A DNA stretch of 64,000 bases from IMG/VR virus record IMGVR_UViG_3300017770_000001, positions 62,001-126,000 of that record; one strand, given 5' to 3'. This document shows positions 33,447-52,826 of this stretch, one piece after another. The stretch comes from a virus. A model generated the notes under the pieces. It was not told where the DNA came from. It ran no database searches and saw only the letters and a list, made by a program, of their open reading frames with translations. Both the position numbers and the translations under genes were made by a program. The first letter of the stretch is position 1; every line of letters begins with the position of its first letter.

Positions 33447-34343
33447 TTAGGAGTCTGCAGCGAGTTTCTTAAAGTAACTCATTGCATCATCTTCATCTAC
33501 TGAAGTGTCTGCAGTAGGGATAGCAGGTTCTTCAGTGACATTGTTATTGACACCTTCCCATGGTGCTGTTACTGTATCTTCTGAGATTGTCTCTGCAGTT
33601 GATGTTGCAACATTACCAGTAAGTCCTAGTGTTCTATCGAGTCTTTCTTTCAACTCTTCATAAGATTTGAAGTTTTCAGGTGCTACAATTTCTTGTAAAG
33701 GGAACACAGACTCGTAGATACTATTTAGTTCATTCTCATCTGTTGATAATGCAGAAAGTGAATCAAATTCTGATTTATCATAGTTCCAATAACCGTCAAC
33801 TTTTCTTATTTTGATTTTGAAGTTTGCACCTTCATCTCTCAAGTCGAAAGGATTGATTGCTTTTTCATCTTCGAATGCTGGAGAAATTGCTTCTTTCAAC
33901 ATCTCAAAGATTTTTTTGCCATATCTGTATTTGAACACTTTACCTTCGTTGTGTGGATTTTTTGGGTCTGAAATAACATGGATATTGGACACATAGTGTA
34001 AACGTCTTTTTTGTTTACGTGCAATTTCTTTGTTTGCTTCAATCCCAGTGTTCCATAACTGAGTGTTGTATTCAGACACAGGGTCTTGTTTACCAATGGT
34101 GGTTAATGATTTCTCAATATACCATCCACCTGGCCCTTGGAACCCATGGTCAAAGTAAGATACCCAAGGCATCTCTTCACCATCGGGTGTAGGAAGAAAC
34201 CTAATTACTGCATAACCATTTCCACTCTTGTCGAGTTCAGGTTTCCAGTAGTTTTCGGTTTCGTTTTTAAGATTATCACTTTTAGGTGATGTAGATGCAG
34301 CGTTCATTGCTGCTCTTAATTTATCTAGACTATCGTTTGGCAT
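33447..34343 (-). CDS. 32: Single-stranded DNA-binding protein gp32, no zinc ligands
   Basis: 298 residues (T4 gp32 is 301). Conserved parts: basic N-terminus (LDKLRAAMNAA), YWKPELDKSGNGYAVIRFLP, then SYFDHGFQGPGGWYIEK, and an acidic C-terminal tail ending DDAMSYFKKLAADS. It coats ssDNA in replication and recombination. T4 gp32 holds zinc through His64 and three Cys; here H66 is kept but the Cys positions are Ser or other (SLTTIGKQDPVSEYN, residues 79-93) and the protein contains no Cys at all. AGGAG lies 8 bases before the ATG. Confidence 0.92.
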   Translation of the reverse strand: MPNDSLDKLRAAMNAASTSPKSDNLKNETENYWKPELDKSGNGYAVIRFLPTPDGEEMPWVSYFDHGFQGPGGWYIEKSLTTIGKQDPVSEYNTQLWNTGIEANKEIARKQKRRLHYVSNIHVISDPKNPHNEGKVFKYRYGKKIFEMLKEAISPAFEDEKAINPFDLRDEGANFKIKIRKVDGYWNYDKSEFDSLSALSTDENELNSIYESVFPLQEIVAPENFKSYEELKERLDRTLGLTGNVATSTAETISEDTVTAPWEGVNNNVTEEPAIPTADTSVDEDDAMSYFKKLAADS

Positions 34344-40996: not shown

Positions 40997-41026
40997 AGTA
41001 TACTAAAAAGTGATACCCATTGTCAA
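40997..41026 (-). promoter_or_regulatory. Repeated early promoter, copy A (TTGACA-N18-TATACT)
   Basis: Minus strand -35 TTGACA (41026-41021) and -10 TATACT (41002-40997), spacer 18. The spacer ends CACTTTTTAG. This 37-bp element differs from copy B (41358-41387) at a single base of the spacer. Confidence 0.8.
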
Positions 41027-41028
41027 GT

Positions 41029-41256
41029 CTAATGGAATCTTTTTTTCTCACCATTGATAACAATGAAGTCGATATCAATTGCACCTATAATCTGTATACC
41101 TTCTCTATGCATAACAGACTCACACATCTGTTCCCAACACCAATTCATGATGTTACCATCACCATTGTATAGTGCAAGTTGCATTTCTTTACTGTTTAGA
41201 GGAATTTCTATTGGTTGGGATGATGCTATGTGTTCACCCATGATACCATTTATCAT
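41029..41256 (-). CDS. Small unknown protein
   Basis: 75 residues, starting MINGIMGEHIASSQPIEIPL, ending DFIVINGEKKRFH. No family recognised. The ATG overlaps the stop of the upstream 32-residue membrane peptide gene (ATGA) and has AGGAG 8 bases upstream inside that gene. Confidence 0.6.
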   Translation of the reverse strand: MINGIMGEHIASSQPIEIPLNSKEMQLALYNGDGNIMNWCWEQMCESVMHREGIQIIGAIDIDFIVINGEKKRFH

Positions 41257-49479: not shown

Positions 49480-50094
49480 TTATTGATTAAATCCAAAGGT
49501 TTCGAAATCTTTTAAGTATAAGTCTTGTACCATATGTTTCATCCACTGAGGTATGTCGAAGGTGTCGATAGGTTTCATACCGTACTTGTCACTGACATCC
49601 TTGTGGTTGTGTCGATATCCTTGAGTGTTACTAGTGGGTACTGCAATACTTTGAGTGATAGGTAGGTCGACTCCTGTGTTTAAATGATACCAGTATCCCA
49701 TTTGTTGTCCGTCAAGATAATAATAATCATACTGAGACCCTAAAAGATACTCACTGGTTGATAAAACGTCATACACAGTGTCATACTTATAGGGTAGAGT
49801 GAATAAATGTCTGAACTGAGAAACAAATCTGTCATACGGATGTCGTACCAAACCACTAATTCGGATTTTTTGTGACATACTGTCATACCTTCTAGGAAAG
49901 TCTGAGACTCTCTCTGAGTAATCTTTCCATGTCCAGTGACCATGTGACTCATTTACATCAAACAATCCCCTAGGACGAAGTGTGGTGTTCTCTGACAACC
50001 ATGTACGGACAAAGGTACCACCTGTTTTGGGTGCATGTATCTGACAATAGACGGATTCAACGAATTCCCCCATGTCATTTACCCATAAAATCAT
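49480..50094 (-). CDS. PAPS-dependent sulfotransferase 1
   Basis: 204 residues. The 5'-phosphosulfate loop is HAPKTGGTFVRTW (PKTGGT at 22-27) and the 3'-phosphate motif RHPYDRFVSQF (84-94), the two defining elements of the sulfotransferase fold. Substrate segment unclear. It moves sulfate from PAPS to a hydroxyl of a glycan or small molecule. A second sulfotransferase (56036-56734) and an APS-kinase-like gene (53999-54445) lie nearby. Confidence 0.82.
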   Translation of the reverse strand: MILWVNDMGEFVESVYCQIHAPKTGGTFVRTWLSENTTLRPRGLFDVNESHGHWTWKDYSERVSDFPRRYDSMSQKIRISGLVRHPYDRFVSQFRHLFTLPYKYDTVYDVLSTSEYLLGSQYDYYYLDGQQMGYWYHLNTGVDLPITQSIAVPTSNTQGYRHNHKDVSDKYGMKPIDTFDIPQWMKHMVQDLYLKDFETFGFNQ

Positions 50095-50135: not shown

Positions 50136-50810
50136 TTAGTTTCGATGATGGTCATACATTTCTGCATACATTTTACCTTTAGGTTCTAATTTATTGTAAC
50201 ACTTCCAATTAAATACACGTCTCGGATGTAATAAATTAAAAGATTGTTCAGGTTTATGGAGAGCTGGTGGGTGTAAGGTATTCGACCACACTATTAAACG
50301 ATTATTTACGTTGTCAACTGTCTTAAACGGAGTGACGTTGTGACCTCTACCATCAAAAAGGTGTAAAGGAATACTTGGTTCCTCAGGTTTACGTAAATAT
50401 ATCATAGCTGCATAGGGTTTGGTCTTAATATCACGATGAATCATCTGAGAAACACACCCACCTTTTGCATATTGACCAAAAGACCACCAATGATAGAGGT
50501 TATCCCACGTATGAGTGTCGTAAGAAAGGGTGTCGATACACTCTTTGAACACTTCATTGGTCTCTAAACCTACTACAATGTCATAAAGTTCATTAAATCC
50601 GTATCTTTTCAGATTATCACGTTCATCTATACGGGATTGCAAGTCTTGTCGGAGGTTATGTGTGTTAGGATAATGTGAATCCATCTTCTCTTGGTACAAT
50701 TTCTCACAATGTTGGTCGTACTCATCATTATACAGACAATAATCTACAACATCCTTAGGTAGGAAGTCGTCAATGACTATATGATGGAAGGGTTCTTTAA
50801 AAATCTCCAT
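50136..50810 (-). CDS. 2OG-Fe(II) oxygenase-like protein 1
   Basis: 224 residues. Double-stranded beta-helix pattern with the first metal pair HRD at 125-127 (SQMIHRDIKTKPYAAMIYL), the distal His in NRLIVWSNTLHPPAL (His180) and a following Arg. N-terminus FHHIVIDDFLPKDVVDYCL is typical of prolyl-4-hydroxylase-like phage proteins. The transcript from the promoter at 51220-51249 would reach it through a long structured leader. Confidence 0.72.
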   Translation of the reverse strand: MEIFKEPFHHIVIDDFLPKDVVDYCLYNDEYDQHCEKLYQEKMDSHYPNTHNLRQDLQSRIDERDNLKRYGFNELYDIVVGLETNEVFKECIDTLSYDTHTWDNLYHWWSFGQYAKGGCVSQMIHRDIKTKPYAAMIYLRKPEEPSIPLHLFDGRGHNVTPFKTVDNVNNRLIVWSNTLHPPALHKPEQSFNLLHPRRVFNWKCYNKLEPKGKMYAEMYDHHRN

Positions 50811-50981
50811 GGTACTAGTATATATCCTAAAAAAAATTTACAGACGTATTCATATAAAAAGGTTTACCCACAGAAATTTCTCTCGAAAAATTCTTATAGG
50901 GGGTACTTGCCCTACTCTAAATCTCTCTAGGAGTCCCATAAGCTATCATTAGTGATTCTCTCAGGTTACTCACAAGTTATC
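50811..50981 (-). other. Gap between structured RNA region and oxygenase gene
   Basis: No ORF. It holds small hairpins (GGG...CCC around 50899-50912) and, on the transcribed strand, TACCC...GGGTA followed by AACCTTTTT around 50860-50905, a weak terminator candidate. An AGGA lies about 15 bases before the oxygenase ATG. Confidence 0.3.
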
Positions 50982-51188
50982 CACAGGGTGAACACAGAGA
51001 CCGCTCCGAAACCCTTTAGAATCAAGGGCTCGGAGGCCGCTGAGAGGAGCTCAACGAAGTCCCTGTGTTGTTTCCACAGTTTTCATAATATAATTGGTGG
51101 TCTCTCTCACTTCCACCTTGGGGTTCTCTGTGTTCCAACACCTAGTCCTACTTAAAGGAGGTCTACAAGGGATTTTCTGATGACTAGG
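50982..51188 (-). ncRNA. Candidate structured non-coding RNA with anti-SD-like loop
   Basis: GC-rich island in an AT-rich genome, without ORF. On the minus strand: 7-bp helix CCTAGTC/GACTAGG (51188-51182 with 51147-51141) whose loop carries CCTCCTTT (51161-51154), identical to the 16S anti-Shine-Dalgarno core; an 11-bp perfect helix GAACACAGAGA/TCTCTGTGTTC (51135-51125 with 51000-50990), extended by 2 more pairs past one bulged base; inside it GGTGG/CCACC, CTGTG/CACAG and a 12-bp GC-rich hairpin (51035-51004). CACAGGG (51067-51061) can also pair with CCCTGTG (50988-50982), a pseudoknot. Predicted 5' end about 51213. No known family recognised. Confidence 0.55.
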
Positions 51189-51219
51189 TTCTGTATCCCA
51201 TGTACTCTACTACTATTAC

Positions 51220-51249
51220 ATTATACTACTAAATGACTGTTACTGTCAA
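51220..51249 (-). promoter_or_regulatory. Near-perfect sigma-70 promoter (TTGACA-N18-TATAAT)
   Basis: Minus strand -35 TTGACA (51249-51244), -10 TATAAT (51225-51220), spacer 18: the strongest match in the window. Predicted +1 about 51213, directly upstream of the structured island, with the next CDS more than 400 nt away. Confidence 0.85.
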
Positions 51250-51965: not shown

Positions 51966-51995
51966 AGTATAGCAAAAAGTGATACCTATTGTCAA
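51966..51995 (-). promoter_or_regulatory. Repeated early promoter, tandem upstream copy
   Basis: Minus strand -35 TTGACA (51995-51990), -10 TATACT (51971-51966), spacer 18, with the CACTTTTT spacer end shared with copies A and B. No start codon follows closely, so its transcript carries a leader of about 100 nt into the next gene or is itself a small RNA. Confidence 0.78.
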
Positions 51996-52200: not shown

Positions 52201-52236
52201 AAAAATAATAAAACCCTTTAGATATAGGGGTTTTGG
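52200..52236 (-). terminator. Intrinsic terminator after the 52218-52826 gene
   Basis: On the minus strand AAAACCC...GGGTTTT forms a 7-8-bp stem, directly followed by ATTATTTTTTA. The stem overlaps the last codons of the oxygenase gene. It is the clearest terminator in the window. Confidence 0.75.
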
Positions 52237-52826
52237 AGCTCCACATACCGTTCAGGTGTATGGATACATGACATGTCACCAGTCCAGTCCTTGGTCATGA
52301 TGTCAAATGCAAGACTTATTCGAGGTTCTTTATGATAGTACGTCTTTACCCTATGAGGTACTTCTTCCCCTAACACTACACATTCTCCTAGTCTATTGGT
52401 ATAATGAGTGTCGTTGATGAGTATTCCATGGTCTTCCTTACCACTAACGAATACACTACATGCATATACGATGTTCTGATGACCTTGTTTCGTTCTCTCA
52501 TGTTCCTCTCTGTGTACGTGTTTCTTAATCATTTGACCGTATCTGAGTATATTACCCCAACACTGTACCCATAGTGAGTCATACTCTGCAAATAGAGGTA
52601 TACTGAATAGTTTGGGTGTAAAAATGTTCCGTAACTCTGTGTGTTCCAACCAGTTGTATACATGGAGTTTGTTTGTTATTCCACTGTATCCGTTGTGTTT
52701 ATGGATATGGGGTATTTTCAGTACGTCTTCTTCGTGTGTGAGGAGTAGGTCTTTGACTGTCTTACACTCTTGATGTGTAAAAAAATCGTGTTGTTGGTGT
52801 ATTCTGTAGGGGTTATGTTTTGTCAT
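52218..52826 (-). CDS. 2OG-Fe(II) oxygenase-like protein 2
   Basis: 202 residues. Probable metal site HVHREEHE (His105, Glu107), distal His in EEVPHRVKTYYHKEPRISLAFD (His158) and 2OG-binding Arg169. The jelly-roll pattern is clear (GILINDTHYTNRLGECVVLG). His/acid usage with Glu instead of Asp is less common. It is the last gene of an operon and ends in an intrinsic terminator. It starts inside the stop region of the small membrane protein gene. Confidence 0.65.
   Translation of the reverse strand: MTKHNPYRIHQQHDFFTHQECKTVKDLLLTHEEDVLKIPHIHKHNGYSGITNKLHVYNWLEHTELRNIFTPKLFSIPLFAEYDSLWVQCWGNILRYGQMIKKHVHREEHERTKQGHQNIVYACSVFVSGKEDHGILINDTHYTNRLGECVVLGEEVPHRVKTYYHKEPRISLAFDIMTKDWTGDMSCIHTPERYVELQNPYI

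Follow-up and report, generated by a model that had tools for sequence, protein, structure and literature searches.

The window analysed here (64 kb) corresponds to bases 62001-126000 of an uncultivated virus record with a length of 135,072 bases. On the minus strand of the window lies a locus whose product is, on balance, a non-coding RNA of about 385 nt. The RNA would be a divergent member of a new family and would act early and in trans, likely as a scaffold. Judged by sequence comparison, the family is an RNA family of related T4-like marine phages and is new to Rfam 15. It combines an early promoter with the hairpins A, B and C, a linker that varies and a 3′ core, and most members also have an AT-tract. 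Related phages with this RNA are found across many marine metagenomes. The baseplate protein gp6 of the source phage has its best match in the OM43 phage Melnitz (41% identity), followed by the Pelagibacter phages Mosig and HTVC008M. For this reason the source phage is assigned, on sequence grounds, to the T4-like marine phages of the wider Melnitz/Mosig/HTVC008M group. The minus strand holds 71 of the 81 predicted genes of the window. Around the RNA locus are small uncharacterised genes, and interspersed with them are genes resembling a sulfotransferase (PF03567) and a 2OG-Fe(II) oxygenase, at window 49480-50094 and 52218-52826. The features discussed below are the following.

51220-51249, minus strand: early sigma-70 promoter TTGACA-N18-TATAAT, 12/12 match, with similar placement in 17 homologues
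50826-51213, minus strand: putative span of the RNA (about 385 nt), with its two ends placed from the promoter position, the conserved 5′ domain, the 3′ core and the AT-tract
51141-51188, minus strand: hairpin A, CCTAGTC (51188-51182) paired with GACTAGG (51147-51141) around a 34-nt loop; 7 pairs, with compensatory changes in relatives
51154-51161, minus strand: CCTCCTTT, candidate anti-Shine-Dalgarno (anti-SD) motif in loop A, present in the window and the 99%-identical L002 only and not conserved
51130-51141, minus strand: hairpin B equivalent GTGTTGGAACAC, assigned by position and by resemblance to the family form xUGU-CCGA-ACAx
51096-51117, minus strand: hairpin C, GGTGG/CCACC with the loop AAGTGAGAGAGA; the loop is common to L174 and L181 and the stem covaries
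50990-51135, minus strand: linker domain of the predicted fold, closed by an 11-bp helix
50893-50942, minus strand: 3′ core CTTATGGGACTCCTAGAGAG...CCCCTATAAG with a foldable terminal hairpin, 19/19 identity with type-2 members
50826-50839, minus strand: AT-tract AAATTTTTTTTAGG, at which the unit probably ends; 15/18 members have a tract of this kind after the 3′ core
41029-41256, minus strand: homologue of gene X, profile match with E 1.3e-30

Promoter, extent and predicted fold

The TTGACA-N18-TATAAT promoter reported by the earlier note was found on the minus strand, with TTGACA at 51249-51244, a spacer of 18 nt and TATAAT at 51225-51220. It agrees with sigma-70 at 12 of 12 positions and is the sole such site within 48-54 kb. 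Similar minus-strand promoters (TTGACAATGGGTATCACTTTTTAGTATACT and the like) recur in the window at 51995, 51895, 41387 and 41026 and also in related phages, and by this recurrence the 51249 promoter is one of a putative set of early promoters in the phage. An extended early-promoter consensus, TTGACAATGGGTxTCACTTTTTxGTATACT, is common to the phage clade (L005, L011-L028 and others; window 51995, 51895, 51249, 41387 and 41026).

About 400 bp behind the promoter had been described as free of open reading frames. This holds for the minus strand: downstream of the promoter no ORF of at least 40 aa is met before the ATG at 50810, where the next minus-strand gene begins (50136-50810, 224 aa, no family assigned), and a 67-aa GTG ORF in the RNA region is on the plus strand only. 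The end at 50982 that had been given for the RNA proved too short, as conserved 3′ elements are located beyond it at 50942-50893 and 50839-50826. With the AT-tract at 50839-50826 as its probable 3′ end, the window RNA probably runs to that tract.

The core of the region (50985-51190) folds on the transcribed strand with a predicted energy of -71.7 kcal/mol and a z of -3.3, and 1 of 300 dinucleotide shuffles was as good; the z of the opposite (plus) strand is -1.8. Over the full 330 nt of the RNA region the z is only -2.0, and folding energy alone is therefore insufficient as proof of an RNA. The elements of the structured island claimed earlier are present in the computed fold, namely hairpin A, the 11-bp helix and further hairpins. 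The long-range helix is formed by GAACACAGAGA (51135-51125) and TCTCTGTGTTC (51000-50990). Hairpins are predicted in the linker domain at 51079-51063, 51055-51039 and 51035-51004; the last of these had been called a 12-bp GC hairpin and is indeed present, but with 11 pairs and a bulge. The linker domain of the window is restricted to the source phage and its 99% relative, and its helices, including the 11-bp helix, are without covariation support. The hairpin B equivalent shares bases with the 5′ strand of the long-range helix, which is favoured in the minimum free energy fold, and its pairing in the window is uncertain.

Homologues and compensatory changes

Scans with neighbouring proteins yielded a single near-identical copy of the RNA (L002, 99.1%). 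When the window RNA was searched against the complete records of relatives, G009 and G010 matched it at 19/19 positions close to its 3′ end, within non-coding sequence that has homologues of window genes nearby; the 3′ core is likewise identical over 19/19 positions to the RNA 3′ end in the type-2 members G009, G010 and G044-G046. The motif CAGAGGnnnATGTCCGAACAT is common to the non-coding stretch of G009/G010 and to gaps of high GC content in other relatives. When the two motifs were used as scan patterns, five contigs were matched by both, the motifs being about 200 bases apart, and further scans enlarged the membership.

Gene X encodes 72-76 aa, ends in ..VINGVxKxFH, has no match in PHROGs or Pfam and directly precedes the RNA in nearly all relatives. 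A scan with its alignment yielded L174, L176, L181 and L184, each with the RNA behind gene X. In L174 the RNA lies directly 3′ of gene X and shares 79% identity with the window RNA over 115 nt (E 2e-17). 3′ cores similar to that of the window are found in L174, L176 and L199. The last was obtained by a GTDB scan with the 3′-core pattern only, which gave three matches: L199, Cellulomonas and a Synechococcus MAG. Upstream of the match in L199 are gene X, TATAAT and the hairpins A, B and C (38.4 bits with model R2). Since L199 was found via the 3′ core alone and has the 5′ domain, the 5′ domain and the 3′ core travel together. The Cellulomonas match is regarded as chance. L199 is contig JAAXIF010000075.1, titled Sphingobacteriales MAG; it is phage-like, carrying gene X and the RNA family, and is probably misbinned phage DNA. 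The exact 5′ motif had no match in GTDB genomes, a DNA search of 50,697 annotated phage records gave no match to the RNA family, and blastn of the window RNA and two family members against annotated phages returned chance matches only, or none.

A model built from the window core alone (R1) gave only weak matches in relatives. Alignment of the divergent members with MAFFT was wrong, and model-based alignment was used instead, with model R2, built from six members, serving for alignments of nine and 11 members. These alignments are fitted to the model and thus favour the structure; slid structures and shuffles nonetheless stayed far below. In the alignment of 11 relatives 95.4% of cells are paired, and double changes occur in 14 of the 18 pairs (43 cells), compared with 7.0 pairs and 9.7 cells in shuffles, none of 500 shuffles being as high; structures slid along this alignment gave 3-5 cells. 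The nine-member alignment has double changes in 13 of 18 pairs and 31 cells, versus 6.5 in shuffles (0/500 as high), and slid structures over both alignments gave 2-5 cells. A hand alignment of the helices A and C that includes the window, L174, L181 and L022 has all 12 of its 12 pairs doubly changed, with 55 cells versus 12.0 in shuffles. Model R3 matched L181, L046, L021 and L022, earlier known by synteny and blast only, at E 0.0007-0.002. A promoter-like site lies 5′ of hairpin A in 17/17 homologues, at a distance of 17-53 nt and mostly of 17-26 nt. Of 18 members, 15 have the AT-tract, defined as at least A3 and at least T5 followed by GG, downstream of the 3′ core, and a locus contains only 0-2 such tracts. 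The compensatory changes in homologues, for which the earlier note had suggested looking, and the conserved promoters bear out its description of a highly structured non-coding RNA.

The window RNA is taken, from its sequence features, as a divergent and relocated member of the family. This assignment is based on homology and synteny with L174, the compensatory changes in A and C, loop C, the promoter, the 3′ core and the AT-tract. Helix A is TCTATCC/GGATAGA in L174 and CCTAGTC/GACTAGG in the window, and hairpins A and C are both kept by compensatory change. Loop C of the window (also given as GUGAGAGAGA) carries UGARA and has the counterparts GAGTGAGAGAGA in L174 and CATGAGAGAGA in L181, the others having AUGARA. 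The promoter at 51249-51220 is followed by hairpin A from 51188, and both the 3′ core and the AT-tract AAATTTTTTTTAGG match the family. With covariance models built without the window, its copy scored 7.2 bits as the best in 2 kb (E 0.23); in 64 kb it scored 11.7 bits (E 0.37) and ranked sixth behind apparent noise, so that neither value is significant. Unlike the RNA of L174, the window RNA is not located behind gene X. The gene X homologue of the window is followed by the early promoter at 41026 and a gene, with no RNA behind it, and the common context directly behind gene X is treated as non-defining.

Two further pairings considered for the family were not adopted. By eye, CCGA in loop B can be paired, as in a pseudoknot, with UCGG in the 3′ core in types 1 and 2, L164, L174 (as UUAGAA/UUCUGA) and L176; no such pairing is found in the window, L181 and L199. 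A 5′-3′ closing helix, GGUUCAUC/GAUGACC, breaks down in L137.

An open frame, ANSPxExLxxGPLMLRHRD, is present in the 3′ domain of L119, L137, L115, L164 and L129, with some synonymous-looking changes. Its reading as a peptide or tmRNA-like tag is the less favoured one: L033 has an in-frame stop, and in type-1 members the frame diverges, by eye, at the AT-tract. Conservation of this region at the RNA level is preferred for these reasons.

A second conserved structured non-coding region is located at window 33446-33225, minus strand, directly 3′ of the gene 33447-34343, which from its look we take to be gene 32, encoding the ssDNA-binding protein. L216, L217 and L218 have AGTAAGGGAAA...GCGGAA...AGAGCGGGAATGCTGTAAA..GGGGCGAC at the same place. 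Its stems seem to covary (GTATAG/CTATAC vs GTTAAG/CTTAAC; TTGATAC/GTATCAA vs GCCCTTGT/ACAAGGGC), and Rfam gave no match to the region. Its hairpin 1, which has ..TATATGATGAAACATGTGAAG in the loop, is similar to the family's loop A, with 12.6 bits and an E of 0.0023 in 700 nt, and the RNA behind gene 32 may thus share the hairpin-A loop with the family in the same phages.

Possible function of the RNA

We propose that the RNA would be transcribed early by the host polymerase and would be stable and act in trans. Most likely it would serve as a scaffold, the conserved loops and the 3′ core binding, in the course of takeover, a protein or RNA of either the phage or the host. Candidate binding loops are A (..UAUGUGAAAG), B (CCGAA) and C (UGARA). 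The linker between the 5′ domain and the 3′ core tolerates cargo, either an ORF or a tRNA with the same ORF: it is absent or short (L129), contains the small ORF gene Y, or contains tRNA-Gly and gene Y. Gene Y lies between the two domains in L031, L033, L174, L176, L181, L184 and L022 and has no match in Pfam or PHROGs. The tRNA-Gly (anticodon ACC) is positioned between hairpin C and gene Y in L181 (588-660) and L184 (891-963). More tentatively, the family could represent a new class of early RNA scaffolds, produced by the host polymerase immediately upon infection, in which fixed hairpins and a 3′ core are combined with an exchangeable linker in an RNP or RNA-only complex for host takeover.

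An autonomous early RNA acting in trans appears likelier than the leader of a single gene because the genes after the RNA vary between members: gene Y in some and, in others, a 164-aa protein or several small ORFs, while the window has the 224-aa gene. A cis-acting leader, that is, a long structured 5′ UTR controlling the next gene like a riboswitch or a stability element, is nevertheless the main rival, since the transcript ends are predicted ones and the 5′ domain is often succeeded by gene Y. The RNA and the gene that comes after it (in some relatives gene Y, in the window 50136-50810) share a strand, a strong GC terminator between the window RNA and that gene is absent, gene Y sits between the 5′ and 3′ domains in the seven members named above, and a glutamine riboswitch has been reported in the related phage Melnitz (PMC9004378). 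We nonetheless consider a leader unlikely. The downstream gene not only varies but is absent or remote in several members, the RNA is retained in members without gene Y, and no riboswitch class matches. Furthermore, L176, L181 and L199 have a second promoter between the 5′ and the 3′ domain, and in these the two domains may be two transcripts.

Still less probable is that the RNA is a mobile or selfish element, moving between early intergenic sites with gene Y and the tRNA as its cargo. The different sites of the RNA in the window and in L174 and the varying linker cargo would agree with such an element. However, the RNA interrupts no gene, its placement behind gene X is kept in most relatives, and no signature of a group I/II intron, ribozyme or endonuclease was found (Rfam for the RNA; Pfam and PHROGs for gene Y).

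We give little credence to a role as an R-loop primer, in which the early transcript would prime replication as at the transcription-dependent origins of T4: there are a strong early promoter, a predicted structured transcript and a perfect DnaA-box TTATCCACA (50977-50985, plus strand), the sole copy in the window and inside the RNA locus, but a single DnaA-like box is roughly at chance level, this one lies in a portion peculiar to the source phage, and the GC skew around the site drifts only gradually.

The earlier note had suggested that the RNA could bind SD sequences, act as a decoy or pair with mRNAs, and so favour leaderless phage messages. As an anti-SD decoy, its CCTCCTTT loop would pair with SDs in the mRNAs of the host or the phage and thereby alter translation. 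The motif does lie in the loop of the 7-bp helix, at 51161-51154 in the 34-nt loop of hairpin A. About five of its eight bases are predicted to be mostly unpaired, and its expected count in 330 nt is 0.0016 from base composition, before allowing for post-hoc choice. ACCUCCUUU is similar to the 3′ end of 16S rRNA. Pairing over 7-9 nt is possible with the SDs of three phage genes (40576-40968, 51255-51608 and 62549-63601), and may be due to chance. The decoy reading is contradicted by the relatives. L174 has GACCTC--TTAAG in place of GACCTCCTTTAAG (in a longer reading, GACCTC--TTAAGTAG vs GACCTCCTTTAAGTAG), while helix A is kept by double changes. At the corresponding end of the loop, other members read TATGTGAAAG, GGTTAAG or TGTTAAG, and CCTCC occurs in none of these. 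Loss of the motif in close relatives with persisting helices had itself been named as evidence against the decoy, and L174 presents this case. The idea that leaderless messages are favoured does not hold either: 56 of the 81 genes have an SD match of at least 4 nt upstream of the ATG, and 22 of those have one of at least 5 nt. It is correct that no plus-strand gene uses AAAGGAGG, its only plus-strand copy being the RNA's own complement; this says little because the predicted genes are predominantly on the minus strand. Selection for anti-SD pairing is thus not seen in the sequences compared, and the decoy is very improbable. A striking motif of a single genome can mislead when homologues are not considered.

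Comparison with known phage RNAs

The Rfam search suggested earlier revealed no known family: the window RNA had no match in Rfam 15 at the gathering score or at E up to 10, the RNAs of the relatives had none either, and in the rest of the 135-kb record two tRNAs were the only Rfam matches. Neither glnA/Downstream-peptide nor other known riboswitches were matched in Rfam. ARAGORN and Rfam were negative for one-piece and permuted tmRNA at the window RNA and in the relatives, where only the tRNA-Gly of L181 and L184 was found. The T4 stable RNAs C and D are phage-encoded stable RNAs located in the T4 tRNA cluster.

Melnitz and Mosig encode a permuted two-piece tmRNA with a glutamine (glnA-type) riboswitch (PMC9004378). 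Like the RNA described here, it is a structured RNA of related T4-like marine phages, and that of Melnitz is behind an early promoter (PMC9004378). In contrast, the window RNA is without a CCA acceptor and T-arm, and neither tmRNA nor riboswitch was found in the window or the rest of the record with ARAGORN and Rfam. The family model gave no credible match in Melnitz, Mosig and HTVC008M (best E 0.06 or worse), and the two matches that were checked in this set are in or beside structural genes.

The manA, wcaG and PhotoRC-II RNA motifs of T4-like cyanophages (PMC2864571) also covary and likewise come from sequences of marine phages and metagenomes. They are mostly 5′ UTR motifs of metabolic genes, however, and none matches the family.

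GOLLD and ROOL (PMC12286853) resemble the new family as phage-encoded structured RNAs. GOLLD in addition has a conserved and a variable region, sometimes with tRNAs in the linker (PMC12286853), which is comparable to the tRNA-Gly of L181 and L184. The new family differs from both in its helices, its early promoter and the lack of an Rfam match; many GOLLD RNAs exceed 800 nt, whereas the new RNAs have about 190-400 nt without cargo. Covarying phage RNA families missing from databases are uncommon finds, and beside GOLLD and ROOL this family provides a defined target for studying a non-coding role of early phage RNA.
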